Assembly (NCBI GenBank): GCA_030604405.1
Contig: JAUVVY010000025.1
Location: forward strand, 1 to 64,000
Direction of reading: 5' to 3'
Length of the DNA: 64,000 nt
From: a bacterium
GTDB lineage: Bacteria; Armatimonadota; Zipacnadia; Zipacnadales; UBA11051
The number at the start of each line of letters is the position of its first letter. Position 1 is the stretch's first letter. The notes below the pieces were generated by a model. That model searched no databases and had not been told where the DNA came from. It saw only the letters and a list, made by a program, of their open reading frames with translations. Of this stretch, positions 8,359-54,064 are shown piece after piece. Both the position numbers and the translations under genes were made by a program.

Positions 8359-9858
8359 ATGGAAGAACTGATTCGGCATTCGCGTCAACTGCGGGCGAAA
8401 CTGGTCGGGGACCCCCACCGGCCGACATACCACTTCGTAGCGCCTGAGGGGGTGGGGATGCCGTTTGATCCGAATGGGTGCATGTACTGGAAGGGCAGGT
8501 ACCACCTGTTCTACATCTTCCAGGACGCCGATCTGCCCCGCGGCGGCCATTGCTGGGGCCACGCATCCAGCACCGACCTGCTCCACTGGGTCCATCACCC
8601 GACGGCACTTGCGCCGGCTCCACAAGACCCCGACACTGGCATCTTCAGCGGCAACGGCTTCATCGACAAGGACGGGATCCCCACGCTGGCCTACTTCGGC
8701 ATTGATGCCGGAATCTGCATCGCCACGAGCGAGGATGACGAACTTAACCATTGGAGGAAGTCGCCGGCGAACCCGGTCATCGCGATCCCGAAAGAGACTG
8801 AGCCGGGCTATGGCGAATACAACGTCTTCGATCCGCATATCTGGGTGGAGGGCGATACATACTACGCGATCCTGGGCGGCAAGGTGCTCCCGGAGAACGA
8901 GTATGACACTGTCTTCCTGCTCAAGTCCGATGATCTGGTCAACTGGCAGTATGTCCACCCGTTCTACGAGCCCAATCCCGCATGGACGGGCCCGGAGGAG
9001 GACTGCGCCTGCCCTGACTTTTTCCGTCTCGGCGACCGCTACATGCTGCTGTGCATCAGTCACCCGCGAGGCGCACGGTACTACCTGGGGCGATATGAGA
9101 ACGAGACCTTCCACCCGCAGGAGCACCACCGGATGAATTGGCCGGGCGGCACATGCTTTGCGCCGGAGAGCCTGCTGGATGACAGCGGACGCCGTATCTT
9201 CTGGGCCTGGGTCATGGACCGGCGAGAGCGGGAGACGGCGCAGGCATCGGGCTGGAGCGGGGTGATGACACTCCCGCGAGTACTGTCACTCGATGAGGGC
9301 GGAGCGGTGCGCATCGAGCCGGCTGAGGAACTGGAAGCACTCCGGATGAACCATCGTGTCGATGAAAGCATCCATGTTGGCGTGGATGAGGTACTCGCAC
9401 TGAACGATGTGAGCGGGGACAGGATCGAGCTGGGTGTCGAATTCCACAACGAGGACGCGGATGAGTTTGGCGTCATCGTGCAGCGGTCCCCGGAGAGTGA
9501 GGAGCAGACGGCAATCACGTACGACGTGGCGGCGGGCCTGCTGCGGATCGATCTCAGCCACTCAACCCTGGACAAGAGCATCACGTATCAGCAGTTCTGC
9601 ATCCCCCCAGAAGGTGGGAACCCACAGGTGCACGCCCAGGAGGCGCCGCTGACGTTGCAGCCGGGGGAGCCACTGAGACTGCGCATCTTCCTGGACCGCT
9701 CGATCATCGAGGTATTCGCCAATGGCCGGCAGTCCATGACCCAGCGGGTATACCCGTCTCGCGCCGACAGCACGGGAGTGGCTTTGATCAGCCGCGGCGG
9801 GAGCGTGAACGTTGCGAAGCTCGAAGCATGGGACATGGCCCCCACCAATCCCGCGTAG
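8359..9858 (+). CDS. GH32-like glycoside hydrolase (five-bladed propeller plus beta-sandwich)
   Basis: 499 residues, ATG preceded by AGGAGG; no signal peptide, so probably cytoplasmic or cryptically exported. The N-terminal propeller carries the GH32 landmarks: FDPNG at residues 36-40 (D37 in the nucleophile position), FSGNGFID, FDPHIW near 157-162 in the place of the usual RDP motif, and EEDCACPDFF near 213-222 in the place of the usual ECP motif. A C-terminal beta-sandwich typical of the family follows, ending with FLDRSIIEVFANGRQ, the conserved GH32C strand. The family hydrolyses beta-fructosides (sucrose, levan, inulin). Here the arginine of RDP is missing and the acid/base motif is rearranged, so the substrate may not be a fructan. 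Confidence 0.8.
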   Translation: MEELIRHSRQLRAKLVGDPHRPTYHFVAPEGVGMPFDPNGCMYWKGRYHLFYIFQDADLPRGGHCWGHASSTDLLHWVHHPTALAPAPQDPDTGIFSGNGFIDKDGIPTLAYFGIDAGICIATSEDDELNHWRKSPANPVIAIPKETEPGYGEYNVFDPHIWVEGDTYYAILGGKVLPENEYDTVFLLKSDDLVNWQYVHPFYEPNPAWTGPEEDCACPDFFRLGDRYMLLCISHPRGARYYLGRYENETFHPQEHHRMNWPGGTCFAPESLLDDSGRRIFWAWVMDRRERETAQASGWSGVMTLPRVLSLDEGGAVRIEPAEELEALRMNHRVDESIHVGVDEVLALNDVSGDRIELGVEFHNEDADEFGVIVQRSPESEEQTAITYDVAAGLLRIDLSHSTLDKSITYQQFCIPPEGGNPQVHAQEAPLTLQPGEPLRLRIFLDRSIIEVFANGRQSMTQRVYPSRADSTGVALISRGGSVNVAKLEAWDMAPTNPA

Positions 9859-15515: not shown

Positions 15516-18500
15516 TTACCTGATATCGCCATAGACATGGCCATCATCGGCGCCGGCCACGATCTGCATAGTGCCGTCTCCGTTGCGGTCGGCCAGAGCT
15601 AGCGCAGTTACATTATCGCCGGTCTTGAAGGTGCTGGTGATATTGCCCTCGGCGTCAAGGACCCGGACCATGCCGCCCTCGGTGCCAACGATGATCTCTG
15701 GCCTGCCGTCGCCGTCAATGTCGCCGACTGCCAGGTCAAGTATGGCCTCGCCGACATTGCAGTTCCACAGGATGTTGCCGTGCACATCGGTGACCAGGAC
15801 GCAGAAATTCTTGGAGGCGGCGATAAGCTCAAGGTTGCCATCGCCGGTCAGGTCCGCCATTGCCAGCCCGGTTATCTCGACGCCTACGGATTTTGACCAC
15901 TGCGGCTCGCCGCCCAGCTTGTCCAGATGCAGCCCGCCAACTCGCGAGCCGGCAACGATCTCGACGACACCATCACCATCCATATCACCGGCCGCCACGC
16001 ACATCGCCCCGCCATGATAGCCGGTGTTGATCTTCTGCAGGAACTCGCCATGTTGGTCGAAGACGTTTGCCCAGTCGTAGGTAGTCCCGATTAGAGACCC
16101 CAGGCTACCATCGCCCATGTCAATGAAGGCGATGGAGGTGGGCTGGTGATACTTGTTATTGGCCGTCCAGACGAGGCTACCCTCATGGTCGTAGGCGTAG
16201 GCAAACCAGTTGCTGCAGCCGATCACGATCTCGCCGTCACCGTCACCATCAATGTCGGCGCAGCCGACAACCTTCACCTCTCCCGATCGCGGCTCGATAT
16301 CCGGCGTGTAGCCGTTTGCAGGCGTGTCCACGGACCACAGCTCGTTGCCTTGATGGTCGAAGCAGTAGAGTCTGTGATCCGCGCCGCCGACGACGACTTC
16401 GCCGCGCCCGTCACCGTCGAGGTCATAAGCATCCACACACAAGGCCTCGGTATCCAGCGTCTTCTCCCAGACGACTTGGCCATCGCCGTTGATGCACTTG
16501 ACCGAATCCGCCGCCACGCAGATGACCTCAGTGCTGCCGTCGCCGTCAACGTCCGTGGTGGCGAGGGCGTTGGTGCTGAAAGGCACGCGGAACTCGCGGT
16601 GCACGGGAGCCGCCGGCTCGGGGAATATGCGCATCTCACAGACAGCGGTGCGCCCCTGTTCGAACTCGGTTATGAAGACCCTGATGCGGGTGGTCTTGAC
16701 AGGCTCGAACCTGTAGGTCCAGTTGGCGCCACTTTCGTCTCTTTGAATCTGTGCTTCGATGGGATACCAGTCCTTGCCGTCCCAGGCCTGCAACTGTTGA
16801 CCGTCAATAGTCGGCCCATGGTTGGCATCAGCGTAGTCTATCTGGAAGCAGCCTGCGATCACCGGCCCGGTCCACTCCATGCCCATGTCCTTGGGCAGGT
16901 CGCGTGCCCAGGCATGCGTGCTATAGACGCCGGCCCAGGTGTTGGGATTGCCGTCCACTGCATCACGGGCCCGGGTTCTGCGCTGGCCTTCGGTCCAGCA
17001 CTTCGCTGTGCCGATCTTGGTCAGGTTCTCTACCTCTTCCCCCTTGTCATTAACATAGACCGTTCGGGTTTCAATCCTGCTGTTGTCCACCTCCCAGGCG
17101 GCCTGCAGTTGCTTAGTTTCGTCCGTACCGGCACCGAGGGCCGCCAGCTTCTGCTCATGCTTCCTGGCGAGCATGGTGTACTGGTGCCGGGCGCCGATAT
17201 TCAGTTCCGTAGCAGCAGGCCTGAACCTCAGCGTGTGCCTGCCCGCTGGCACTGTAAACCTCATGGTGTCGGGGCCGGCCTGTGCCGGCTCCACCTCAAC
17301 CCGCGCACCGTCAAGTCTGACGTAGCCCTTGGTGCCCAGCGTGATCTCGGTATCCTCTTTCACCTCGATCGTTCCCGTTGCCGTGCGGTCAATATCTACA
17401 CTGATGTTGACCGGGCTAGATGCCGCCAACCAGATCTGACCGTCAGCCGCGAGGGTCTTTGCCGCAGTCAGTGCGAAGTAGTCCTGCTGCAGATAGAAGA
17501 CCGCGGCGTCAATTTGGATGTGCGGCAGAAGCTGGCATTGGCCGGCTCCCGCCAGCGCGTAGCCATGCGGCGATGTTATCATCACCGCGTTCTCGGACGC
17601 CGGCACAATCTGATACGGCCAGTCCTCTTCGCCCGGGGCGTACAACAGATTCATCAGGTACAGCTTGTCGCCCGCTGCCATCTGCGCACCCTTGCTTTCG
17701 ATTATCGAATGGCGGTAGGAGATATGCGGTGTGGTATTAGTAATCTTAAGCTGCGCCTGGGACGCGCTGACCAGATTGAAGGCCTGGCTACGGTAACTCG
17801 CACGCACGCGATCCTTGCCGAGCTCTGGCTTGTCATCCGATAGCGTGCGGAATACCGCGCGGATACCGTAGTCACCGGGCTTCAGCGCCTCGACCTCGTC
17901 AATGACAAGGAAGTACTTGTCCTTGTTCCACACGATATTGCGACGCCAGTTGGCACCGTTGTAGTTGTTCAGATAAGTCCGGGTCATGCCGATATTATCG
18001 AAATCGGACATGGCTGCGAGGCCGGCCAGGTGGGGAACAAGCTCGAACATGCCGTCGCGCAGAACGATCAGTGTGTTGTGCTCGACGGTCTGCGGGACAA
18101 AATAGCCGCTGTCGAAAAGACAATAGCGATTGTTGTCAGTGTACTCGATTATGGCATTGGCGTCGGGATGGCCGTGGAAGCCCCACGATTGGCCCCCGAT
18201 GATCAAGTACTGGTCCTCGCTGTTCATGCTGGTGCGGAATGTGATCTTGTCAAAGCATTGGTCGCGCGGCGGCGGGGGGATGGCGTCCAGGAACTCCTTC
18301 CAGCCGGGCCGCCAGGCATCCAGCACCTCAGTGCGATGCTCGTACACCCAGTCGGGCAGTGGTATCACATGCACGCCCATCGCCGCATCGGACTTCTCAG
18401 GTTTTATTTCGTCCTGCAAATAGGTATTGTGGAAGAAGTTTCCGCTGCGGCTGTTGGCTCCGGAGGAGTTTTGCTCGGCGTATAGATAACTCCCGTCTCT

Positions 18501-19784
18501 GAGTTTCCAGCCCGCGACTCTGAGCAGGTCCGGCCACTCGTACGGCTTACCCATGCCGCTGGTGTCGCCAAAGCCGGCTATGCCGCCCAGGTTGTTAATG
18601 ATAGCGGCGGCGTAGTCGGCCATCTTGCGGCCGGTGCCGTTGTCCCAGTATTCGTCATAGCCGTATGACAGCACATAATACAGCGTGTCATAATTCGTTA
18701 TGCCGCCATAGCCTGCGCAGTCCTCCAGGGAGCGCCAGAATCTGGCCTGGCTCTGGGAGCGCACGTGCGCCCAGGTGTAGAGGCCGCCGAGGTCCAGATC
18801 GTAGTAGTTCTTCCAGTACCGCGCCATGTCGCAGGTCGTGCGGGCATCCCAATCGTTGCCCAAAGGCGCGTGGGTAGCCTCGGCCTGCTTGCCGAAGCGC
18901 CCGAAGCGGTGGGTCAATTCCCACATGAACTCGCTGATCTCAGCGCGCTCCTGCTCGCTGAACTGTGACGCCTCCTCGATGGCGTCCCAGATATTGAAAA
19001 GATAAACCGTCGTCCGCAGGTCATGAACCTCGCCCAACTCCCGCACCGTCTCGCGAAACAAAGGCAGAATGCCTTTGAATATCTCCAGTTCATCGGGATT
19101 GCCGAAGCAGTAGTAGTTGCTGCCGGCCTTGCATAGCAGTTCGCCGCAGGCGCGGAAGTTCTTATCCCTGGCAGCGTCTATGCGGCCCTGTACGGCATCG
19201 GGTGTTGGTTTGTAGGCCAGATTTCCGTCAGGTAGCACCACTCTCACAGTGTGCGGGTAGGAGATATTACCTTGCTGCGGGAGACTGGAGATGAAATCGT
19301 CCACGGCCTTGCTCAGCGAGTGCACATCCGCCCCGCCAATGCAGACAAAGCTGGTGCCCCTACCCACGGGGTCATGCACAGTGCGGATTGTGTAACCGCC
19401 TTTGCCCGGCCATTTGGCGTCCAGATTGACGTGATACTGGTCGTAAAGGCGTTCGATTAAGGGATTGCTCGCAAAATAGCCGAGCAGAATCGCGTTCGAG
19501 CTGTTGAGCAGATCAGCGGAGACCTCCGAGGCGGCTTTCACGGGCACGTCCGCCCCAGACACCTTCCTTATCGCCGCCGCCACTGTGCTGCCAAGCTGGG
19601 CGTACTCGTCGCCGTCGGGCACAACGATAAGGCAGTCCGAAGCACCGTCCTGTGCTATCGGAACTTCAGTGTAGAAGGCCTTCAGCGGCGGCATCGGTGG
19701 TATATCCACAGCTAACACGCTCCCCGTAATACCCAGCAGTAATGCAACGGTCACAAACCAATACGGCCATCCGTACTTACGCAC
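15516..19784 (-). CDS. Multidomain secreted heparinase II/III-like lyase with F5/8-type and FG-GAP domains
   Basis: 1422 residues, GTG start with GGGAGGTG upstream, signal peptide 1-25. Order of parts: an N-terminal alpha/beta domain (40-180) like those before glucuronidases and heparinases; an alpha-toroid region (about 200-510); a beta-sheet core near 530-590 with SWGFHGHPDANAIIEY and VEHNTLIVLRDG, the H and N positions typical of heparinase II/III; a beta-sandwich to about 860; and an F5/8-like (discoidin) domain at about 920-1060 with AKCWTEGQ, QLQAWDGKDWYPIEAQ and TRIRVFITEFEQGRTAV. Finally about seven FG-GAP blades (DVDGDGSTEVICVAAD, DIDGDGDGEIVIG, DGDGVVEIVAGS), each with a Ca-binding D-x-D-G-D-G loop. 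Probably an exported lyase held to polysaccharide or a surface partner by the C-terminal modules. Confidence 0.8.
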   Translation of the reverse strand: MRKYGWPYWFVTVALLLGITGSVLAVDIPPMPPLKAFYTEVPIAQDGASDCLIVVPDGDEYAQLGSTVAAAIRKVSGADVPVKAASEVSADLLNSSNAILLGYFASNPLIERLYDQYHVNLDAKWPGKGGYTIRTVHDPVGRGTSFVCIGGADVHSLSKAVDDFISSLPQQGNISYPHTVRVVLPDGNLAYKPTPDAVQGRIDAARDKNFRACGELLCKAGSNYYCFGNPDELEIFKGILPLFRETVRELGEVHDLRTTVYLFNIWDAIEEASQFSEQERAEISEFMWELTHRFGRFGKQAEATHAPLGNDWDARTTCDMARYWKNYYDLDLGGLYTWAHVRSQSQARFWRSLEDCAGYGGITNYDTLYYVLSYGYDEYWDNGTGRKMADYAAAIINNLGGIAGFGDTSGMGKPYEWPDLLRVAGWKLRDGSYLYAEQNSSGANSRSGNFFHNTYLQDEIKPEKSDAAMGVHVIPLPDWVYEHRTEVLDAWRPGWKEFLDAIPPPPRDQCFDKITFRTSMNSEDQYLIIGGQSWGFHGHPDANAIIEYTDNNRYCLFDSGYFVPQTVEHNTLIVLRDGMFELVPHLAGLAAMSDFDNIGMTRTYLNNYNGANWRRNIVWNKDKYFLVIDEVEALKPGDYGIRAVFRTLSDDKPELGKDRVRASYRSQAFNLVSASQAQLKITNTTPHISYRHSIIESKGAQMAAGDKLYLMNLLYAPGEEDWPYQIVPASENAVMITSPHGYALAGAGQCQLLPHIQIDAAVFYLQQDYFALTAAKTLAADGQIWLAASSPVNISVDIDRTATGTIEVKEDTEITLGTKGYVRLDGARVEVEPAQAGPDTMRFTVPAGRHTLRFRPAATELNIGARHQYTMLARKHEQKLAALGAGTDETKQLQAAWEVDNSRIETRTVYVNDKGEEVENLTKIGTAKCWTEGQRRTRARDAVDGNPNTWAGVYSTHAWARDLPKDMGMEWTGPVIAGCFQIDYADANHGPTIDGQQLQAWDGKDWYPIEAQIQRDESGANWTYRFEPVKTTRIRVFITEFEQGRTAVCEMRIFPEPAAPVHREFRVPFSTNALATTDVDGDGSTEVICVAADSVKCINGDGQVVWEKTLDTEALCVDAYDLDGDGRGEVVVGGADHRLYCFDHQGNELWSVDTPANGYTPDIEPRSGEVKVVGCADIDGDGDGEIVIGCSNWFAYAYDHEGSLVWTANNKYHQPTSIAFIDMGDGSLGSLIGTTYDWANVFDQHGEFLQKINTGYHGGAMCVAAGDMDGDGVVEIVAGSRVGGLHLDKLGGEPQWSKSVGVEITGLAMADLTGDGNLELIAASKNFCVLVTDVHGNILWNCNVGEAILDLAVGDIDGDGRPEIIVGTEGGMVRVLDAEGNITSTFKTGDNVTALALADRNGDGTMQIVAGADDGHVYGDIR

Positions 19785-24982: not shown

Positions 24983-25288
24983 TCAGATCTCCACGTCGCC
25001 CAGAGGGAAATGGTGTTGGCAGCCGTACACGTCCCGGTCGCCGGGCGCCCCTGAGCCGCGGCCGGGCCGCGGCAGCGCAACCTTGATCGTCAGAAGCCGC
25101 TCGAAGGGCACGACCCGCACGCTGTCTGGCTGCACATGGTAGAGCGCAGCAATACGCGATGGCAGGAGACTGCGTGCGCCAAGGACACGCCGGAAAGTGG
25201 CGATGTCGGGCAGCACCAGGTCGATCGTCAGCGTGAACGGGCCGGCGTTCTTGCTTCGGATGACCGTGGCGCAATCGTAAAGGCGCAT
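24983..25288 (-). CDS. DUF4387 domain protein, last gene of the hydro-lyase/AtuA operon
   Basis: 101 residues, the usual length of DUF4387 proteins. It starts MRLYDCATVIRSKNAGPFTL and ends with SGAPGDRDVYGCQHHFPL, matching the family pattern (L-x-D-x-A-x-V-I-R-S-K-N-A-G-P and G-D-x-D-V-Y-G-x-Q-x-x). The start lies two bases after the stop of the AtuA-like gene, so the two are translated together. DUF4387 proteins are recurrent partners of DUF1446/AtuA-like proteins and resemble the small C-terminal domain of AtuA; the molecular role is unknown. Small, soluble, cytoplasmic. Confidence 0.85.
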   Translation of the reverse strand: MRLYDCATVIRSKNAGPFTLTIDLVLPDIATFRRVLGARSLLPSRIAALYHVQPDSVRVVPFERLLTIKVALPRPGRGSGAPGDRDVYGCQHHFPLGDVEI

Positions 25289-25290
25289 CG

Positions 25291-26667
25291 TCAGACCTCC
25301 TGGAACTCGACCGGAAACAGAGCGCTCAGGTCCGGGACCTGCATGAGATGATAGACTGAGAACTCATAAACCGGCCCGCCACTGAAATCGGACGGGGAGA
25401 ACGGGAACGCGAGGTTGCCAGCCGTGGTCTTGCGCCCGTCGTAGTGCTGGTGCAGGGCCGTCGAGCGCGCCAGCTTGAGCACGCGGTCGGCCAGGTCCTG
25501 GGAGGGGGCGACCGCGTCAATGACGAGGCCCACCTCGCGCGGTGGCGGTGAGGGCAGGCCCTCCAGCGGACCGGTCACGCCGTCCAGGCCATATCGCAGG
25601 AACCGAAGGCTAATCTGATCGGGTGGAAGAACGTCCGCAAGGGCACGCGTCACTGTCTCGCGTACTGAATGCTCGAGGGCGTCCAGCCGCTCAATGGTAC
25701 CCGGATCGCGGACGCCGGCAATGGTGATGGCGCGATATCCCACGCAACGCGCGCCCTCCAGCTTCACGGCATCTTGAGCGGGCGGCACCAGGCAGGCCCC
25801 GCGCACCTTCACCCCACCTTCACCCACAGGCTCAAACGTGCAGTTGGAGAGGTCAACCTTGCCTTCGGGCTCATAGAAACAGTTCGGGTCAGGCTGCTCA
25901 TACAGCGAATGGGCCGCCACCGACTCGGGCGTGCAGCGCCGCTCGGGGTTGGCCGGAAACACCTCAAAACAGGTCGCCCCGACCGTCCCGATCAGCACAT
26001 CATTGGCGCCTCCGGGCGTCGCACACAGGGCGCCGCATTCCATGATCTTGCCCAGGTGCAGGGCGAGGCCGGGGTCGAACCCGTGACGGATCGGCTCCGC
26101 GGCGAAGATGGCCGCATCACAGCAGCGCCCCGCGATCACCACCTGGGCGCCGCCGTCGAGCGCCCGGATGATCGGCTCCGTGCCCATCTGTGCGACGATG
26201 TGTGTGCAGGCCCGAACGTGCTCTTCCGTGAGCGGGTGGGAGTGTCCACACGGCGCAAGACGTCCCTCCCGCAGCGCCTCGAGCACGGTCGCAGCCGCCA
26301 CGTCGGCCGGGATCACGGCCAGGCGGAAGTGAAGTCGGTTGCGCCCGGCGATCTCCCGCAGCATCTCCAGGAAGCGCTCCAGGTGCGGTTTGGCCCCGGA
26401 GCCACCTGCTGTGCCGACCACCAGGGGAGTTTCTCTCTCGATGGCTGCACACAGGGCCGGCTCGAGATCGCGCGAGGCTTGAGCAGTGCTGACGAAACCC
26501 TCACCGGCTCCGAGGTAGTACGGACCGGGGTCGGTCGAGCCGGCGTCAACCCCGATCAGGTCCGGATGCATGGCGAGAGCACGCTCAAGGCTCTGCAACG
26601 GGTAGCCATATCCCAGCAGGCCGCACAGCGACACCATGCGCAGTCGGCGGCCCTTACCCGCGCTCAC
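25291..26667 (-). CDS. AtuA-like (DUF1446) protein
   Basis: 458 residues; the GTG start overlaps the stop of the upstream hydro-lyase beta subunit (GTGA). An alternative ATG is at 26637. The sequence has the DUF1446 landmarks: LIGVDAGSTDPGPYYLGAG near the N-terminus, VGTAGGSGAKPH, a GAQVVIAGRCCDAAIFAAEP segment and LHLGKIMECGALC. Named for AtuA of acyclic terpene (citronellol/geraniol) catabolism, but most family members have no assigned reaction. Here the C-terminal AtuA domain is missing and the separate DUF4387 gene follows at once, the common split arrangement. With the dehydratase upstream, a role in catabolism of a hydroxy-acid or dicarboxylate is more likely than terpene use (inference). 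Confidence 0.85.
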   Translation of the reverse strand: MSAGKGRRLRMVSLCGLLGYGYPLQSLERALAMHPDLIGVDAGSTDPGPYYLGAGEGFVSTAQASRDLEPALCAAIERETPLVVGTAGGSGAKPHLERFLEMLREIAGRNRLHFRLAVIPADVAAATVLEALREGRLAPCGHSHPLTEEHVRACTHIVAQMGTEPIIRALDGGAQVVIAGRCCDAAIFAAEPIRHGFDPGLALHLGKIMECGALCATPGGANDVLIGTVGATCFEVFPANPERRCTPESVAAHSLYEQPDPNCFYEPEGKVDLSNCTFEPVGEGGVKVRGACLVPPAQDAVKLEGARCVGYRAITIAGVRDPGTIERLDALEHSVRETVTRALADVLPPDQISLRFLRYGLDGVTGPLEGLPSPPPREVGLVIDAVAPSQDLADRVLKLARSTALHQHYDGRKTTAGNLAFPFSPSDFSGGPVYEFSVYHLMQVPDLSALFPVEFQEV

Positions 26668-27299
26668 GGGTTCACCTCCGTATATGCGAAGTCCGAGGGA
26701 ATGCCGAGCTCTTCATACACGTCTGCCAGATGCCCGCGTCCCCGGGCCTCGAGGATCTCGAAGTAGTTGCGGCCGGCAGCATCCATGTCCACAAAGAACG
26801 GGCCGAAATGGTCCACCTCGAAAACCCAGGTCGCCTCGGTCTTGCCGAGTTCCTCGAGGAAGTGCACCGCCACCACTCGCTGCACCTGGCGGCGCAGCAG
26901 ATTGCCGCAGACCCCGATCTTGGTCAGATGCACCGCGCCGACGTCACGCAGCGCGTGTGCCGTGCCGGGCCCCATCGTGGTCTTGCCGATGAGCGTCCGG
27001 AGCCCCAGCTTCCTGACCACAGCGCCGCCGTAGCGCTCGAACCGGATACTGGACGTAGGCTCGATGCTGACGATCTCCCAGGCGTCCTCAGTTTGCCGCA
27101 TGACCGGGCCCACGTGGAAGAAGCAGTTCACCTCACGGAAGTCGAGCGGCGGGAGCAGGTCGTCCTCGATGGCGCGAATGTGGAAGAGGCTGCGCCCGGT
27201 GAACAGCAGCCCGCTGACGGTGACCACCTGTCCGAGTTGAAGTTCACGCGCCAGGGGCTCCGACAACGGCAACTGGAGATGGCGGATGGTGTCGTTCAC
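26664..27299 (-). CDS. Fumarase/L-tartrate dehydratase-type hydro-lyase, beta subunit
   Basis: 211 residues from the GTG at 27299, which overlaps the alpha-subunit stop (GTGA) and gives the family's usual length; longer in-frame starts read into the alpha gene. Class I fumarase C-terminal-domain features: LPLSEPLARELQLGQVVTVS, then LLFTGRSLFHIRA (T-G-R-D-x-A-H in most members), FHVGPVMRQ, TTMGPGTAHALRDVGAVHLT and GPFFVDMDAAGRNYFEIL. The beta subunit completes the active site that binds the substrate carboxylates. With alpha it forms an oxygen-sensitive 4Fe-4S hydro-lyase. Possible substrates: fumarate/malate, tartrate, mesaconate/citramalate; sequence alone does not decide. Confidence 0.88.
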   Translation of the reverse strand: MNDTIRHLQLPLSEPLARELQLGQVVTVSGLLFTGRSLFHIRAIEDDLLPPLDFREVNCFFHVGPVMRQTEDAWEIVSIEPTSSIRFERYGGAVVRKLGLRTLIGKTTMGPGTAHALRDVGAVHLTKIGVCGNLLRRQVQRVVAVHFLEELGKTEATWVFEVDHFGPFFVDMDAAGRNYFEILEARGRGHLADVYEELGIPSDFAYTEVNP

Positions 27300-28198
27300 G
27301 GCAGCTCTCCCGTATAGCTTACTTGCCCGTCGCTTGAGATGGTAGCCCGCCAGCGGCGTCCGACCAGGCACTGAGCATTGACGGCCACCGGCAGCGCCGC
27401 CGTGTGCGTCATGGCCGTTTCCACGTGAATGGCCAGCACTGCGTTGGTCCCCGCGACGCCCATCGGCCCCAGACCCAGGCGTTGCGCCGCGGCGTAGAGC
27501 TTGTCTTCAATCGCCGCCACGCGCGGATCCGGATGCGGCCGGCGGACCGGTCGGAGCAGCGCCGCTTGCTTGGCCAATTTCATGCACAGATCCGCCGTGC
27601 CGCCGATGCCGATGCCGACAATGACGGGCGGGCAGATCTTCCCCGCGTAGCAGCCATCACGAATTGCATCAATGGCGAACTTGAGGATTCCTGCCTCACC
27701 ATCGGAGGGATACATCATGCGGTAGAACGTGCCGAAGATCTCGCCGCCGCCGCCCTTCGGCGCGGCGATGATGTCGAGCCCATCACCATCCCCGTTGAAG
27801 CGCAGCTCCACCGTGGGCATCCCCGGCCCGAGGTTGTTGCCCGGATTATCGCGGGTCAGCGGGTTGACCATCGTCGGGCGGAGAAAGCTCTCCGCCGTGG
27901 CCCTGGCGGTTGCCTCCCTGGCGGCTTCCCAGAGAACGCCGAATCCTCCCGCAATCTGCGTGCGGCTTCCGGCCGTGACAAAGAAGAGCGGGAACCCCGT
28001 ATCCGCGCAGACCAGCACCGCCCCCTCGCCCGTCTCGCGCGCATTCTGCAGGCTCACCTGCAGATGCCGGCGCGCTAGCGGATCGGTCTCCTCCTCGAGC
28101 GCCGTCATCAGCGCTGCCTCGACGTCAGGCGGCAGATTCGTCGCCGCCAGGCACATGGCCTCATACATAGTGGAGACGATCGTTTCCCGGCGAATCAT
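27296..28198 (-). CDS. Fumarase/L-tartrate dehydratase-type hydro-lyase, alpha subunit
   Basis: 300 residues, ATG start. The three cysteines expected to hold the 4Fe-4S cluster are at C64 (VCADTG), C189 (KICPP) and C277 (NAQC). Conserved segments PVIVGIGIGGTAD, LGLGPMGVAGTNAVLAIHVE and HTAALPVAVN agree with two-subunit class I fumarases and tartrate dehydratases. First gene of a four-gene operon (alpha, beta, AtuA-like, DUF4387) with overlapping or nearly overlapping junctions, hence coordinated expression. Substrate is inferred only as a dicarboxylate: malate, tartrate or citramalate. Cytoplasmic; likely sensitive to oxygen because of the solvent-exposed cluster. Confidence 0.88.
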   Translation of the reverse strand: MIRRETIVSTMYEAMCLAATNLPPDVEAALMTALEEETDPLARRHLQVSLQNARETGEGAVLVCADTGFPLFFVTAGSRTQIAGGFGVLWEAAREATARATAESFLRPTMVNPLTRDNPGNNLGPGMPTVELRFNGDGDGLDIIAAPKGGGGEIFGTFYRMMYPSDGEAGILKFAIDAIRDGCYAGKICPPVIVGIGIGGTADLCMKLAKQAALLRPVRRPHPDPRVAAIEDKLYAAAQRLGLGPMGVAGTNAVLAIHVETAMTHTAALPVAVNAQCLVGRRWRATISSDGQVSYTGELP

Positions 28199-46828: not shown

Positions 46829-47363
46829 CGTCGGGGCAGAGGCCTCGCTACAATGCCTTTTGTTCGCGTTTTGGCGATTCCCAGCGTCCGGTGAGGGGGG
46901 TAAGCCCTACCTTGGTGCTGGAAATGGCCGTATGACGCTCATAGCCCGAACCAGTGCCCGCTTTTTCGCCCCAGAGCCAGATGTCATACAGCGGCGGCTG
47001 CCGATTCGCGTCTTCGCATAAGGCGGCGAGTCTTATACGTTTTGAAACCGGCTTTAGCAAATGTTTCACGGAAAGTGCAGCAACCAATCTCTGTGCAGGA
47101 TTCAACACAAGCAAAAGCGAATAACACGGTCGAAAAATATCAGCGAAAAGTTGCCAAACACAATGTCTTACAGGCATCAAGACCGTTTCGCAACGGTCTC
47201 GCTGAGTGTGATACCGGTCCCTACAGCTACTCAGTTTCGGGACGCACCTGCTCATTTCCCACAGGAATCTTCATGAGGCACGCCGGAACCTGCGCGACGT
47301 TGTGCAAGGAGAATGCCCTGGTGCGGCGCAACAGGCAAGCAACAGCGAGTAGAGGCAAACAGA
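46829..47363. other. Spacer before the heparinase-like gene
   Basis: Short overlapping frames on both strands without family match. A minus-strand frame (46848-47255) has a protein-like stretch (YDIWLWGEKAGTGSGYERHT), but the rest is poor. No gene is called. Confidence 0.4.
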
Positions 47364-50300
47364 ATGCATAATACTGTTGTCCGAGCATGGGCGATCTTGA
47401 TTGTGCTCGTTATTACCAGTTCAAGCATCACATTCGGCAAGACCGGGCCTACTTATTGGACTGAGGCACGCGTCAGCCAACTGCGCGATAGTGCCAAGAA
47501 GGACGAGTCCGACCTTCGGCGATGTCTGGAAGGCACACCCTACAACTTCCATGGCACAACCTACTTTTCGGCTGACACTCTGGCCGGGCTGTCCGATGAG
47601 AAGCTATGGAACCTGATGCCGCCGACCACTATGAAGCGCAAGCTGAATCCCAGTGAGCTCAAAGGTTGCCCGGTGCATGGCCTGCAGGTTCGCCAGTTCG
47701 GCAGCCATTACCCGTGGAGAATAGACTGCATCGATCACCCTTACAAGATTCAGTGCCCGGTGGGCGGTGAGTGGTATCCTTCCAACGACTATGCTGCGGG
47801 TGATATGACCTCCGGCAAGTACGCCGATGATGGCACCGGCTGCAAGCTGGGTGATGACACGTATTATTTCGTCCAGCACTACGCCTATGCCGCTTTCCTG
47901 GGGTGTGTGCGGCCGGGCATCAAAGCACTGGCCCGGTCCTACGGATATACGGGTGATCCAAAGTACGCCCACGCATGCGCCATAATGCTGGCTCGTGTCG
48001 CCAAAGAGTACCCTAATTCGACCGACAAGCGCCACCTGTGCTACAAGGGCAACTACGGAAACATAAGCGGCATGATATGTGATCACGTCTGGGCCAATGA
48101 CACGCTGCAAACAACGGCTTTGGCGTATGACCAGATCTACAACTATTTGCCCCAGCATCCGGAACTGATCGATTTTCTGTCCACCAAAGTGAGTGCCATC
48201 AGCGAGGTCGCAAGCTATCGCAAATATGTCGAAGACAATCTCCTGCGCGCTGGCGGCCAGGGCGTGATAGATGGGGCGATACTGGGTAACACCGGCATGG
48301 CGGAACTGACCATCGCAACAGTGGCCCTGATTCTCGATGACCACAGCGACCAGCGCTCCAATTCGCGCGACATGATGCAGTGGCTATACCACGGGCAGGG
48401 CGGCATGCTGTGGCTTGGCAACCAACTCTACAAGGACGGTTTGTCGTATGAGTCGATGAGCTACAACGGTGCGCGCAGGGGCTATATCTGGGCGCTTGAA
48501 CGGGCCCAGCAACTGCGAAGTCTGCATCCTGACCAATACCCGCTCCGCGATTACCCGATGCTGACAGAGGGCCCCAAGTTCAAGGCGCTGACCACATTCC
48601 AAAGCCGCGTCGCTTGCCTGGGACGATACCGACCGGCGGTGGGCGATGCCGGTGGCTACATGAAGACGCCTGCAAAGCCGCCCAAACGCAGTATGGCTAA
48701 CCAGACAAGCGGCGAGCTGTTCGACGGCTACGGGCTGGGAATTTTACGGCAGGGCGGTAGTGGTGAAAACCAGCGCGCTCTGTGGCTCTTTTACGGCGGC
48801 TTGCTGGGCCACCGCCACGATGACCCGCTTAACCTCGGCCTGATGGGGTATGGGTATAATCTGCTGCCGGAGTTGGGCTATCCGGCACATTGGCGCCACC
48901 GATGGTCCTGGGAAGGCAGCATTGCGGCGCACAATACCGTGGTTGTGGACGGCGTCACGCAAATACGCCGCCGGATCGAGGGTCGTGCCAATTATTTCGT
49001 TGACGGCCCGAACTGGGCTGTCATACAGGCCGAGCACGCGCCGTACACCTATGACTCTCAGTATTGCCCTGACCAGCCGCTTGTGCCCGAGTACCAGCGC
49101 ACCTGCGCGCTTGTGGGCATCTCTGACCAAGATTACTATGTCTTCGATCTGTTCCGCGTCACAGGCGGGGTGCACCATCAGCTTTGCTGGCATGGCCCTG
49201 ACACGGCAGGTGACATGACATACGATGGCCCCGAATTAGCTGCTCAGGACACGGGGAGTGCGGCCGGCCCTGATATCGAGCGCGGCACGTATTACCGCAA
49301 CAGTGCAGGGCGGGTGCGACACGATGCATTTGGCTGGATGAAGAATGTCAGGCGCGGGACAATAGCAGAGCCCGTCCTGTTGGACTGGGCCGTTAGAGAC
49401 CAGATCGACACACATCTGGCCATGCATCTGCTTCCCCACAACAGCGCTGACCTTACCTTAGCCAAAGGCCGGCCTCCTGCGCAGCCCAGCCGGTACACGG
49501 CCGAATTTGCCATACTGGCACAAGGCGCGCCCCGGCCGCCGCAGCCGTGGATATCTCAAGACAAATCGGAAATTGTAATCGAAGTCGAAGATTTCAGCGG
49601 CTTTGATTCAGTGGATGACTATTTCTGGGAGACCAGGAACTGGGCACACCTGCCGGGGGCACAATACGTCGGTGGCGCGTCGGGACGGGCCTACCAAGCC
49701 GACAAGACCATCACCTGTGACCGGTATACAATTCCGGCCGGTGACTACAAGCTGTTCTTGCGTGTGGTCAATTACAACAAAGGCCAGAATAAGGTGCAGG
49801 TCCAGGTCAATGGTGTGAAAGGCGAGGTGGACTGGAAGCCGGTGCCGCTGACTGAAGCCAACAGCCTTCTTCACTGGACCAGAGGCGTAATCCTGCGCGG
49901 GGTTCCTACAGGCAATCAACTGAGCATCACCACCGTGCAAGCTGACCAGGCGGCCATCTCCATAGACAACATCTATCTTACGACTGATCTGTTCGCCGAC
50001 CCGCCGAAATCCACACATCCACTGCTGGCACGCGTCGGACGTGATGAACAGCAACTGCGAAGTTGCTTTGTCACGCTCATCGAGCCATACCAGTCGCAGC
50101 GACATATCGCCGCTGTGGCCAGATTGGAGGCTGAGGGTAGATACAGCGGTGCGGTCATTGAGCTTGCAAATGGCTGTCGGGACCTGATACTCGCCTCAGA
50201 TACACCCGGGCAGCCGGTTGAGGCACAGGGGCTTTCAGTCACGGGGGAGCTGGGTATGATACGCCTGCGCGGGGAAGATGTAGAGGCGGCCCACTTGATC

Positions 50301-51089
50301 AAAGGCACCAGCCTTTCATACAAGGATTGTCTTGTGAGCATCTCCGCAGGGCGCGAAGACTGCAAGATCACAGTGGTGGATCGTGAGGCCAACTCGGTCA
50401 CGGTCGTGCCCGCGCTGAGCGCCCCGCAATTATTGGCCGGGCGATGGGTGCGGATTTACAACCAATTTCGCTCCGGCATGTACCGGTCCAAGGAAGCGCA
50501 CAACACCGGTCACGCCACTGTTATCTCGCTTGAAGCTATCGCCAGCCTCAGCGAAGGTCACGCGGTGGGTCTTCGCGATGGCTTAGTCCGCAACGGTTTT
50601 GTGCCCATGCCATTTGCCGGGGCCAGACAACGAGTCGATGGGACGCTGGACCTGACTAACGCATGGTTCCGCGGCAGCTATCTCAGCGACGAAAATGGGC
50701 GCCATCAGTGGCAAGTCAAAGGCGTCCATTGCAACCGGACCGCAGGTGTATCTCTTCACGGCTACGGCTATTACGACGTTGTCTTGGCCGAAAAGGTTGG
50801 CGCTTTAGCTCTACAACATGGCCTGGCGCCGTCAAACCGGTTCGTTCTCTGGGATTATGGGGTCGGCGATATGGCGGAAATCGTCCACTCCGCTCATCTG
50901 CAAGCCACCCGCCAGGACAGTTGGCGGCTCGTGACGAGCGGGCCAGTCAAGTTACAAGTGCCGGGGGCGGTGGCAAGAGTGCAGATACGGTCCCGCGGCA
51001 GCGAGGAGTGGACAGACAGTCCCAATCCGATAATTATTGATGCCGATAAGTTAAGCGCGTGTGAATGGGAAATCAGGGCGCAAAGGTAA
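47364..51089 (+). CDS. Secreted heparinase II/III-like polysaccharide lyase
   Basis: 1241 residues from the ATG at 47364, where the signal peptide starts (MHNTVVRAWAILIVLVITSS) with GAGG upstream; an earlier in-frame start at 47313 would precede the export signal. A cysteine-rich segment (ELKGCPVHGLQVRQ, YKIQCPVGGEWYPSNDY) probably binds metal. An alpha-toroid follows (about 190-440). The heparinase II/III core near 480-530 has GLLGHRHDDPLNLGLMGYGY and SIAAHNTVVVDGVTQ, with the conserved His-x-His-x-x-D/N and H-N-T-V elements. A carbohydrate-binding-like beta domain (about 720-860, DKTITCDRYTIPAGDYKLFL) is inserted before C-terminal beta-sandwiches. Expected to cleave uronate-containing polymer outside the cytoplasm. 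Ends convergently with another heparinase-like gene. Confidence 0.8.
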   Translation: MHNTVVRAWAILIVLVITSSSITFGKTGPTYWTEARVSQLRDSAKKDESDLRRCLEGTPYNFHGTTYFSADTLAGLSDEKLWNLMPPTTMKRKLNPSELKGCPVHGLQVRQFGSHYPWRIDCIDHPYKIQCPVGGEWYPSNDYAAGDMTSGKYADDGTGCKLGDDTYYFVQHYAYAAFLGCVRPGIKALARSYGYTGDPKYAHACAIMLARVAKEYPNSTDKRHLCYKGNYGNISGMICDHVWANDTLQTTALAYDQIYNYLPQHPELIDFLSTKVSAISEVASYRKYVEDNLLRAGGQGVIDGAILGNTGMAELTIATVALILDDHSDQRSNSRDMMQWLYHGQGGMLWLGNQLYKDGLSYESMSYNGARRGYIWALERAQQLRSLHPDQYPLRDYPMLTEGPKFKALTTFQSRVACLGRYRPAVGDAGGYMKTPAKPPKRSMANQTSGELFDGYGLGILRQGGSGENQRALWLFYGGLLGHRHDDPLNLGLMGYGYNLLPELGYPAHWRHRWSWEGSIAAHNTVVVDGVTQIRRRIEGRANYFVDGPNWAVIQAEHAPYTYDSQYCPDQPLVPEYQRTCALVGISDQDYYVFDLFRVTGGVHHQLCWHGPDTAGDMTYDGPELAAQDTGSAAGPDIERGTYYRNSAGRVRHDAFGWMKNVRRGTIAEPVLLDWAVRDQIDTHLAMHLLPHNSADLTLAKGRPPAQPSRYTAEFAILAQGAPRPPQPWISQDKSEIVIEVEDFSGFDSVDDYFWETRNWAHLPGAQYVGGASGRAYQADKTITCDRYTIPAGDYKLFLRVVNYNKGQNKVQVQVNGVKGEVDWKPVPLTEANSLLHWTRGVILRGVPTGNQLSITTVQADQAAISIDNIYLTTDLFADPPKSTHPLLARVGRDEQQLRSCFVTLIEPYQSQRHIAAVARLEAEGRYSGAVIELANGCRDLILASDTPGQPVEAQGLSVTGELGMIRLRGEDVEAAHLIKGTSLSYKDCLVSISAGREDCKITVVDREANSVTVVPALSAPQLLAGRWVRIYNQFRSGMYRSKEAHNTGHATVISLEAIASLSEGHAVGLRDGLVRNGFVPMPFAGARQRVDGTLDLTNAWFRGSYLSDENGRHQWQVKGVHCNRTAGVSLHGYGYYDVVLAEKVGALALQHGLAPSNRFVLWDYGVGDMAEIVHSAHLQATRQDSWRLVTSGPVKLQVPGAVARVQIRSRGSEEWTDSPNPIIIDADKLSACEWEIRAQR

Positions 51090-51265: not shown

Positions 51266-54064
51266 TCAGGGGGCGGTATTAGTCATGGTCGTCGCCAGGG
51301 GAATGCAGAAGGTGTTGGTGCCCTCGATGCGGCGGCGTGGATGGAAGAGCTCTTCGGTCACGCTGCCTTCTATCTTCAGGCCATGGTCGCCAGTGAGTAC
51401 TATGACCGTCTGGCCGTCCAGGCTCTCGACGCGGTCTATCTCGTAGCCATGAGTGAATCCGTTCCCGTGGGTGACGATCATCCAGACGCCGTGCAGCACA
51501 TCTCCGGCAGGCAAGTCGGCCTCGGCAATGAAGGCGTCATGCGCTGCGCCGTCGTCTTTGCGAGTGGCGGCTTGGATCCGGCCCTCGTAACGGCCCTTCT
51601 CGGCAGCGAGGACCCAGCCGCCGTCCGCCAGCTTCTCTCCCTCAAACAGCCACGCTCTGAGTGTTTCCCTTGCTTCTCCCGTGCCTGGCGAGGCGGCCTT
51701 CTGCCGGACGATCCCCAGCCGGCCTCTGATGCTGATGCCGTCGGCGGTGACGCGCTGCGGGTACGGTGGCTCGTCCACCGTGCCGATAATCGTGTCAATA
51801 GTGTCGCCGTACGTCACGCGGAGAGCCACGGCGTTGCGGTCCGCGGGCGTCAGCGCCAACTGCTCGACCTTGCTGATGAACGGTCCGCCCGCGTAAGGCT
51901 CCTCGACGGCTACGAAGAGGCTGTGCAAGGGGGCCTGGCCGGTGCGCCGCGCCACAAGCTGCGGCATCCAGAAGTCATACACCATGTTATTGTCCTCATT
52001 GGCTCTGCGCACCGAGGGACTGCGCCCGAGATAGACCTCGGTCGTCCCATCGCCGAGGAGATGCGTTCGCACGCCCCTTGCCGGGTCATCGGCATACCTG
52101 AAGGTGATCACCAGATCGCCGTCGGTGTTGCCCTCGGCCACGTCTCGTATGGCACCGTAGGGGCTGAAGCTGGATGAGTTGATTCTCGGCTCTACCCACT
52201 CCTCGCCGGCCGCCATCATGTTCTCGCGGCCCGGCCTCAGCGCCACATTACACTCCGCCGTCATGTCATGGTCAGCCGAGCCGTGGAGCAGCCAGTCGTG
52301 AAGCGCGCCGCCCTGCACACGGAAGATGTCCACAACATAGGCGTCTGCTTCCGAAACCGGCACCAGCACTAGCATCCGCCGGTACATCTCGAGCCCCTCG
52401 ATGTTGTAGTAAGCGCGCTTGCCGTCGGCCTCGACCGTCGCAACGCCATCGGTATCGGGGAAGAAGGCCAGCAAGTCGCCGGCTGCATCGCGTCTGCCAC
52501 TCCCCGCCCATCCCGACTGCTGGGTCTTGCGATCGATGGCGACCAGGTTGTGGCCCGGGGTCATCACCGACCAGCAGCGCAACTTGGTGTTGGTATAGCC
52601 GATGTCGCACAGCATCTCGCGCTCTTTGGCGTACAGTATCAGGTTGAGATTGTCGTAGTGCTCATGGCCGTGGCACTTGGAGAAATGGAGTTGTGCCTGC
52701 ATCTGATTTGGCCCTGTACCGCGCCCGAGGCAGGCGTGCCCGTATCCGGGGCGGATGGTGGAGACGGTTTCATTGCGCGGCGGGAAACGCCTGGCCGGAT
52801 ACTTGTTGCCGGTCCAGGTATCGTGTATCGGGCTGGAGTGGCCATTGGGGAAGGCCAGTATAGCCGGGGCGTTCTTCGCCCTGGCGTAGAAGGCGATGTC
52901 GCGGTCGGGGTCCAGGTCATCGAAGCGGCGGCCAGTGTTCCTGTTGAGGTAGCCGGGCGGGTCCGAATAGCCCTTGAGGGTGGCAAAGGCCTGGCGCAGG
53001 CCGCCCATGACATAGTAGTGATACGAGGGCGCCTCCCACCACATTCCGTCGTAGTGGCATCCGCCCATCAGGATCTCCATCAGCCACTTATACGCCCAGT
53101 GCACGTAGTCGGGCTCGTTGATGACCCGCCCGATCTTCGCCGCTGCGGGTAGAGTGACCGCCGCCGAGCCGTTGCTGTCGTGGCGAGGCGCGGCGCCCGG
53201 TGGAGTGCGAACTGTCGGCGAATTGGAGTACTCCCAGGCGGCCTTGAGGAAGTCGTTTTCCAGCGTCTCGCGCACGTCGTATCCTCGGATCGCCGAGAGC
53301 TTGTCGAACTCATCGCTGTCATAGACGAGGTCATAGCACGCCGCGACGGTGCCGGGCATCTCACTGGGCATGGCGGGGCCCCATTTTCCGCCTCGGTGTG
53401 GATACGGCGGCTGCTGACGCTTGGCGATCTCGAATGTAGTCGTCCACTGCTTCATCACCGGGTAGTGCGGGTACACCTGGGCGAGACGATCGAGGATAAG
53501 GGCCGCCCGGCGCGCGTACTGGGCCTTGCCGGTCGCCTGGTACGCCCGCCCCAGGGCTCGACACTGGCTGAGTATCCACTGCCGCTTGTGCATCAGGATG
53601 TGGCCGGGGATGAAGATACGCAAGTCGTCGCGGAGCTGGTCCTGGTGGTAATCGTACGTGACCTTCTCGCCGAGCGGGTTGTGGCCCTCCATGACCTGGT
53701 CGCACGGGTACTTGTCATTGGGGAAGACCATGCCGCAGTACTTGCACTTGAGCTGCTCGGGATGGTCTATGCTCCAGTCGTAGATCAGGTTGCCATCGGA
53801 GCCGCCATGGCAGTTGGGACAGTCGCAGAAGCGTACGTACGGCCTGTCCGGCACGTGGGACAGCATCTCGTCATCGCTCATCGCCATGAGCCGCTCGACG
53901 GCCTTCTCGTAGCCAGCAGCGTCGTCAGGATTGATGCCGTGCTGGAGGACGGGGTGCTTGATGCCGACTGCCTGGCCCACGGGGAATGCCGGAGAAGCAA
54001 TGACGGCAATCAGCGCGGAGATGAGCAGGATGCCAAGTATGCCGACGCGATAGGAGGTCGTCAT
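51266..54064 (-). CDS. Secreted heparinase II/III-like polysaccharide lyase
   Basis: 932 residues, signal peptide MTTSYRVGILGILLISALIA. Zinc-knuckle-like pairs CDCPNCHGG (near 81-86) and LKCKYCGMVFPND (near 108-113) are followed by a helical toroid containing AGRRFDDLDPD-like and LYDSDEF elements (about 150-430). The core near 460-530 has KCHGHEHYDNLNLILYA and TPGHNLVAIDRKTQ, the H-x-H-x-x-x-N and H-N-x-V motifs of heparinase II/III. A beta-sandwich closes the protein. It ends at the convergent junction with the previous gene, 176 bases away. Of the five in this window it is nearest to the typical length of single-chain heparinase-type lyases. Substrate unassigned. Confidence 0.82.
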   Translation of the reverse strand: MTTSYRVGILGILLISALIAVIASPAFPVGQAVGIKHPVLQHGINPDDAAGYEKAVERLMAMSDDEMLSHVPDRPYVRFCDCPNCHGGSDGNLIYDWSIDHPEQLKCKYCGMVFPNDKYPCDQVMEGHNPLGEKVTYDYHQDQLRDDLRIFIPGHILMHKRQWILSQCRALGRAYQATGKAQYARRAALILDRLAQVYPHYPVMKQWTTTFEIAKRQQPPYPHRGGKWGPAMPSEMPGTVAACYDLVYDSDEFDKLSAIRGYDVRETLENDFLKAAWEYSNSPTVRTPPGAAPRHDSNGSAAVTLPAAAKIGRVINEPDYVHWAYKWLMEILMGGCHYDGMWWEAPSYHYYVMGGLRQAFATLKGYSDPPGYLNRNTGRRFDDLDPDRDIAFYARAKNAPAILAFPNGHSSPIHDTWTGNKYPARRFPPRNETVSTIRPGYGHACLGRGTGPNQMQAQLHFSKCHGHEHYDNLNLILYAKEREMLCDIGYTNTKLRCWSVMTPGHNLVAIDRKTQQSGWAGSGRRDAAGDLLAFFPDTDGVATVEADGKRAYYNIEGLEMYRRMLVLVPVSEADAYVVDIFRVQGGALHDWLLHGSADHDMTAECNVALRPGRENMMAAGEEWVEPRINSSSFSPYGAIRDVAEGNTDGDLVITFRYADDPARGVRTHLLGDGTTEVYLGRSPSVRRANEDNNMVYDFWMPQLVARRTGQAPLHSLFVAVEEPYAGGPFISKVEQLALTPADRNAVALRVTYGDTIDTIIGTVDEPPYPQRVTADGISIRGRLGIVRQKAASPGTGEARETLRAWLFEGEKLADGGWVLAAEKGRYEGRIQAATRKDDGAAHDAFIAEADLPAGDVLHGVWMIVTHGNGFTHGYEIDRVESLDGQTVIVLTGDHGLKIEGSVTEELFHPRRRIEGTNTFCIPLATTMTNTAP

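Follow-up and report, generated by a model that had tools for sequence, protein, structure and literature searches.

The window analyzed here (the whole stretch of DNA, 64,000 nucleotides) carries a four-gene operon on its minus strand, running from 28198 to 24983 in the order alpha-beta-AtuA-DUF4387, which we read, with a probability of about two in three, as a module for the hydration of a mesaconate-like dicarboxylate and the subsequent CmlAB-type cleavage of the product. Judged from sequence, this functional class appears well supported. As we envisage it, the operon would be a two-enzyme catabolic module, with the hydro-lyase feeding the lyase. The alpha-beta pair would form a [4Fe-4S] hydro-lyase whose substrate is a branched, unsaturated dicarboxylate, with mesaconate or something closely analogous as the most likely one, and whose hydration product is a citramalate-type tertiary 2-hydroxy acid. 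AtuA and DUF4387 would then act as a CmlAB-type lyase that splits this acid into a 2-oxo acid (pyruvate in the case of citramalate) and acetate, and would do so without the acyl carrier and the CitE and CitF subunits of the classical lyase.

The four genes were recognized by open reading frame reading and profile matches. The first is the alpha gene (27296..28198, minus strand), which encodes a 300-residue Fe-S hydro-lyase subunit of the class I fumarase/TtdA family (PF05681, E 5e-70) with its cluster cysteines at positions 64, 189, and 277, and this is followed by the gene for the 211-residue beta subunit (26664..27299, minus strand; GTG start; PF05683, E 9e-25). Next are AtuA/DUF1446 (25291..26667, minus strand; 458 residues; PF07287, E 8e-29), a homolog of CmlA (PDB ID: 9erq_A/9evf_A), and DUF4387 (24983..25288, minus strand; 101 residues; PF14330, E 5e-26), a homolog of CmlB (PDB ID: 9erq_B). 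Both the alpha/beta junction (27299-27296) and the beta/AtuA junction (26667-26664) are GTGA overlaps, and a 2-base gap (25290-25289) separates AtuA from DUF4387; the coupled operon described in a first-pass annotation of this DNA was thus recovered with the same genes and junctions.

The PDB entries 9erq and 9evf pair an AtuA protein (chain A) with a DUF4387 protein (chain B), deposited as the citramalate lyase subunits CmlA and CmlB. We found that the window AtuA matches 9erq_A over residues 7-447 (E 7.8e-126) and that DUF4387 matches 9erq_B over residues 4-100 (E 1.7e-18), such that both marks of CmlAB membership are present, namely, full-length homology to 9erq_A/9evf_A and a 9erq_B homolog next to the large subunit. 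In fact, the AlphaFold model of AtuA (pLDDT 92.8) superposes on 9evf_A with a Z score of 52.3 and a deviation of 1.8 Å over 446 residues (46% identity), and nearly all of the residues invariant across both AtuA types described below are kept in 9erq. Beyond 9evf, the fold search with this model gave only single-subdomain matches (residues 309-433, Z of about 9 or less), which did not illuminate the mechanism. Entry 9evf was released in October 2025 under the title 'Citramalate lyase - ADP - pyruvate complex'. No paper on CmlAB or DUF4387 was found in the open literature, and for this reason the CmlAB reaction is taken from the names and title of the deposits. By CmlAB homology, cleavage of (S)-citramalate to pyruvate and acetate is a candidate function of the window-type lyase. 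Here, we infer the direction of the pathway, its substrate, and any use of ADP or ATP, with ADP appearing only in the 9evf title. The view of the DUF1446/DUF4387 reaction as unknown, as it stood in the first-pass annotation, is outdated by these deposits, which also speak against the CoA-ester or isomerase partner roles suggested there. Likewise, AtuA as a CoA-ester or terpene enzyme was set aside on account of the 9erq/9evf match.

Our survey of AtuA neighborhoods covered the 80 named AtuA loci most like the query (one genome per species), along with 388 genomes belonging to the same phylum as one Lentisphaeria locus and 150 genomes related to that of the window, and provided 119 usable AtuA loci in total, which is not a random sample. 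DUF4387 adjoins AtuA on the same strand in 114 of the 119. In 53 loci, the two genes are accompanied by glutamate mutase and/or methylaspartate ammonia-lyase (glutamate fermentation), mostly then by a conserved uncharacterized gene, and often by a mesaconase. A separate type, to which the window belongs, accounts for another 44 loci and combines a different alpha-beta pair with AtuA, with no methylaspartate gene in reach. No locus mixes both types. Moreover, all four genes are present in the same order in 39 of the 44 window-type loci, which excludes a chance grouping; the other five end at a contig boundary (L018, L204), are masked upstream (L047), show a changed gene order (L089), or have a 1.3-kb distance to DUF4387 (L187). 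The strong co-occurrence seen in these counts answers the call for a neighborhood survey in the first-pass annotation. This gene order recurs in Armatimonadota, Planctomycetota, Lentisphaerota, Kiritimatiellota, and Spirochaetota, and carriers of the window type also include relatives from the window's own order, one bin assigned to Spirochaetales, and a small number of gut Clostridia. Two further arrangements were noticed: a Klebsiella plasmid (L027, NZ_MK104259.1) represents a third context, in which AtuA and DUF4387 are found together with aldehyde dehydrogenases and a gene for fumarate hydratase, close to resistance genes, and a relative of the window's genus (L015:6038-9288, genome G003) has a second, divergent AtuA with DUF4387 1.4 kb off and without hydro-lyase genes.

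With PF05681 and PF05683 in neighboring subunits and three cluster cysteines, the alpha-beta pair has the composition of a class I fumarase/TtdAB-type enzyme. Alpha Cys64, Cys189, and Cys277 are conserved in the alpha alignment and match the three cysteines in the chain of Leishmania major class I fumarase (LmFH; PDB ID: 5l2r), in agreement with the earlier observation that the hydro-lyase has all three. Alpha Asp66, Arg107, and His265 are kept and align with LmFH Asp135, Arg173, and His334, and beta Arg36, Thr82, Arg86, and Lys106 are likewise kept and align with LmFH Arg421, Thr467, Arg471, and Lys491; we take all seven LmFH residues to be contact residues, their positions having been checked by alignment. 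More conspicuously, alpha residue 65 is Ala in the window and aligns with LmFH Gln134 (the Gln of the CQDTG motif), presumably a substrate contact and also placed by alignment. All 40 window-type alphas having a letter there show Ala, Gly, Pro, or Val at this position, and the Gln is present without exception in the mesaconases, FumD, fumarases, and TtdA used for comparison. Beta residue 37, which adjoins the Arg aligned with LmFH Arg421 (substrate Arg), is Ser in all 44 window-type loci and Asp in other family members. In a 55-sequence tree, the window-type alphas form one clade (support 100/98) that stands apart from the mesaconases of methylaspartate clusters.

Family-level matches to TtdA/FumA models would fit an alpha-beta pair acting as an L(+)-tartrate dehydratase or fumarase, with AtuA and DUF4387 serving an unrelated reaction. 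We regard this as very improbable, as the NCBIfam matches of the pair, all to fumarase/tartrate-dehydratase models, fall below every equivalog cut-off, alpha shares 29% identity with E. coli TtdA, in which the Gln is retained, and the operon order with the lyase is fixed across phyla. Moreover, another locus of the window's genome encodes a second alpha, that of a canonical fumarase, and this groups with mesaconase/fumarase alphas in the 55-sequence tree, away from the operon alpha. Because of this second fumarase, the operon pair is not the housekeeping one, and together with the separate clade it tells against the ordinary fumarase that the first-pass annotation had held out as the counter-case. 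Chemistry of the class I fumarase type, as proposed there, holds up, as does the guess at citramalate/mesaconate, whereas tartrate and malate become weak candidates, given the sub-cut-off equivalog scores and the loss of the family-wide active-site Gln.

For AtuA, we noticed seven motif positions that separate the window type (C/G/N/Q/F/E/E) from the methylaspartate-linked type (Y/S/S/K/L/G/G). The window protein itself has Cys, Gly, Gln, Phe, Glu, and Glu where the methylaspartate-linked CmlA has Tyr183, Ser220, Lys258, Leu264, Gly266, and Gly268 (numbered as in the window protein), and the CmlA letters are found in 53 of 53 methylaspartate-linked proteins. The combination of Cys183 and Gln258 occurs in 41 of the 44 window-type AtuA proteins, as compared with Tyr and Lys in all 53 of the methylaspartate-linked ones, and there are concordant changes at 220, 222, 264, 266, and 268. 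The three exceptions equal in number the three gut-Clostridia AtuA proteins with CmlA letters. In the AtuA tree, for which support is by SH-aLRT only, the window protein falls in a clade (99) apart from 9erq. From its sequence, the window AtuA is best placed as a sister subfamily of the methylaspartate-linked CmlA, and not as its orthologue. We further infer that the residue differences in alpha, beta, and AtuA may change the substrate.

Such changes bear directly on the main reading, against which there are both the position of the window hydro-lyase outside the mesaconase clade, with the counterpart of LmFH Gln134 missing, and the seven altered positions in the lyase. A module shifted to a bulkier substrate than mesaconate or citramalate, or to some other substituted dicarboxylate from plant material, could account for the replacement of the active-site Gln by Ala, Gly, Pro, or Val and the Asp-to-Ser change beside the substrate Arg in all window-type members; an example would be a carboxymethyl-substituted fumarate such as trans-aconitate, converted via citrate to oxaloacetate and acetate. 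Consistent with this, AtuA proteins encoded beside tripartite tricarboxylate transporter genes have mostly window-type letters, and the carriers of the operon include gut and anaerobic-digester bins, with some loci close to genes for acetyl-xylan or feruloyl-type esterases or glucuronate isomerase. Even so, we consider a bulkier substrate somewhat unlikely, as the enlarged pocket is an interpretation of the letters, no gene in the loci names a substrate, and three rumen-type loci pair the window hydro-lyase signature with a CmlA-letter lyase, which argues for citramalate there. Only tentatively, then, might the operon represent an undescribed two-step pathway for a di- or tricarboxylate other than mesaconate or citramalate in plant-biomass and gut anaerobes of at least five phyla, with an extended form in Lentisphaerota.

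Whether the citramalate of our preferred reading would derive from glutamate can be judged from the genome contexts. The 9erq sequence is enterobacterial and shares 94% identity with a protein encoded on a Salmonella plasmid. The gene for that protein is flanked by methylaspartate ammonia-lyase and DUF4387, and the cluster also includes glutamate mutase and a class I fumarase. This cluster corresponds to that of E. coli O157, from which FumD was measured as a mesaconase and in which a DUF1446 gene was noted downstream of mal (Kronen and Berg, PMC4682846); what becomes of citramalate in enterobacteria carrying the glutamate-fermentation cluster was described as unclear at that time, in 2015 (PMC4682846). 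In the window's genome, another contig (L038:9107-10558, C57) encodes a methylaspartate ammonia-lyase that is convincing by its score (E 2e-90) and its intact family motifs, and the enzyme is also present in three other genus members, two of which carry the operon. These findings would favor a tie between the operon and glutamate-derived citramalate. However, the glutamate mutase E subunit (PF06368) was not found in the window's genome (97% complete), both enzymes are absent from 14 of 17 other operon-bearing genomes, and no locus pairs the window-type hydro-lyase with mal (0 of 53). We therefore see the tie as improbable, and the operon, with the ammonia-lyase present and the mutase not found, would not simply be one of glutamate fermentation. 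In the three of the 17 genomes that do have them, the genes are at another locus without AtuA.

Two side observations concern these methylaspartate genes. In three of the four genus members, the ammonia-lyase adjoins a gene of some 280 codons, homologous among the three, whose product by eye resembles a sugar-isomerase-type protein. Moreover, in many glutamate-fermentation clusters, DUF4387 is followed by a conserved gene for a protein of about 310 residues (e.g., L029:8865-9809 and L181:3862-4791, the latter with a P-loop-like GSEGSGKST), with homologs in 36 of the best 80 loci. It gave no convincing Pfam or NCBIfam match, and none was seen beside a window-type operon.

The Lentisphaerota operons often have additional genes on their upstream side, one for an M20 amidohydrolase and one for an enolase-superfamily protein (L049:1594-5023, L205:13072-16468, L190, L192, L193, and L206). 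The latter scores as o-succinylbenzoate synthase, and N-acylamino-acid racemases belong to the same family. Divergent LysR-family genes lie on the opposite strand near many of these operons; such associations are clustering counts without a statistical test. No M20, enolase-superfamily, or LysR gene was recognized beside the window operon, and its own neighbors (beta-propeller, ceramidase-like, heparinase II/III-like, GH32, and CBM9) were not repeatedly found with the operon in relatives. Elsewhere in the window are polysaccharide-degradation genes at 8359-9858, 15516-19784, 47313-51089, and 51266-54064, which comprise a GH32 protein, a protein whose beta-propeller match is of the lambda-carrageenase type, and two proteins that are heparinase II/III-like. 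Nothing links these genes to the operon, although the first-pass annotation saw a possible connection to sugar-acid breakdown by nearby lyases. A 789-residue protein made up largely of WD40 repeats is encoded at 56532-58901.

With the DUF1446/DUF4387 reaction already assigned by the deposit, our sequence comparisons suggest that what is new is the window-type operon with its fixed residue signature. On this reading, the lyase type would work with a hydro-lyase dedicated to it, in settings other than glutamate fermentation and in several phyla, and a structure released in 2025 links AtuA/DUF4387 to a compound whose fate was in doubt a decade before. The window-type operon opens the family's substrate range to direct testing, and the 'acyclic terpene utilization' label on these genes, which is misleading, would be corrected.

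In relation to known systems, the module and the classical citramalate/citrate lyase (CitDEF with acyl carrier) have by name the same overall reaction, but the proteins are unrelated. CitE-like genes occur in two of the three methylaspartate clusters without AtuA, and a scan of one genome per species with one CitE-like query found none beside AtuA in the best 80 AtuA loci. E. coli L(+)-tartrate dehydratase TtdAB belongs to the same two-subunit family as alpha-beta, though TtdA keeps the CQDTG motif whose Gln is missing from the window alpha, and its operon is without the AtuA/DUF4387 partner that the window operon has. The mesaconase/fumarase FumD and the mesaconases with two subunits found in glutamate-fermentation clusters are, like the window type, class I Fe-S hydro-lyases with three cluster cysteines that co-occur with AtuA/DUF4387. 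In contrast, the window type forms a separate clade, has lost the Gln beside the first cluster Cys, has Ser for Asp next to the substrate Arg, and has alpha and beta directly upstream of AtuA. The closest resemblance is to enterobacterial CmlAB (9erq, 9evf), with which both subunits, their adjacent gene order, the fold (Z of 52), and nearly all invariant residues are shared, whereas the identity is about 46-48%, the seven motif positions are fixed differently, and the window type lacks the link to methylaspartate genes.
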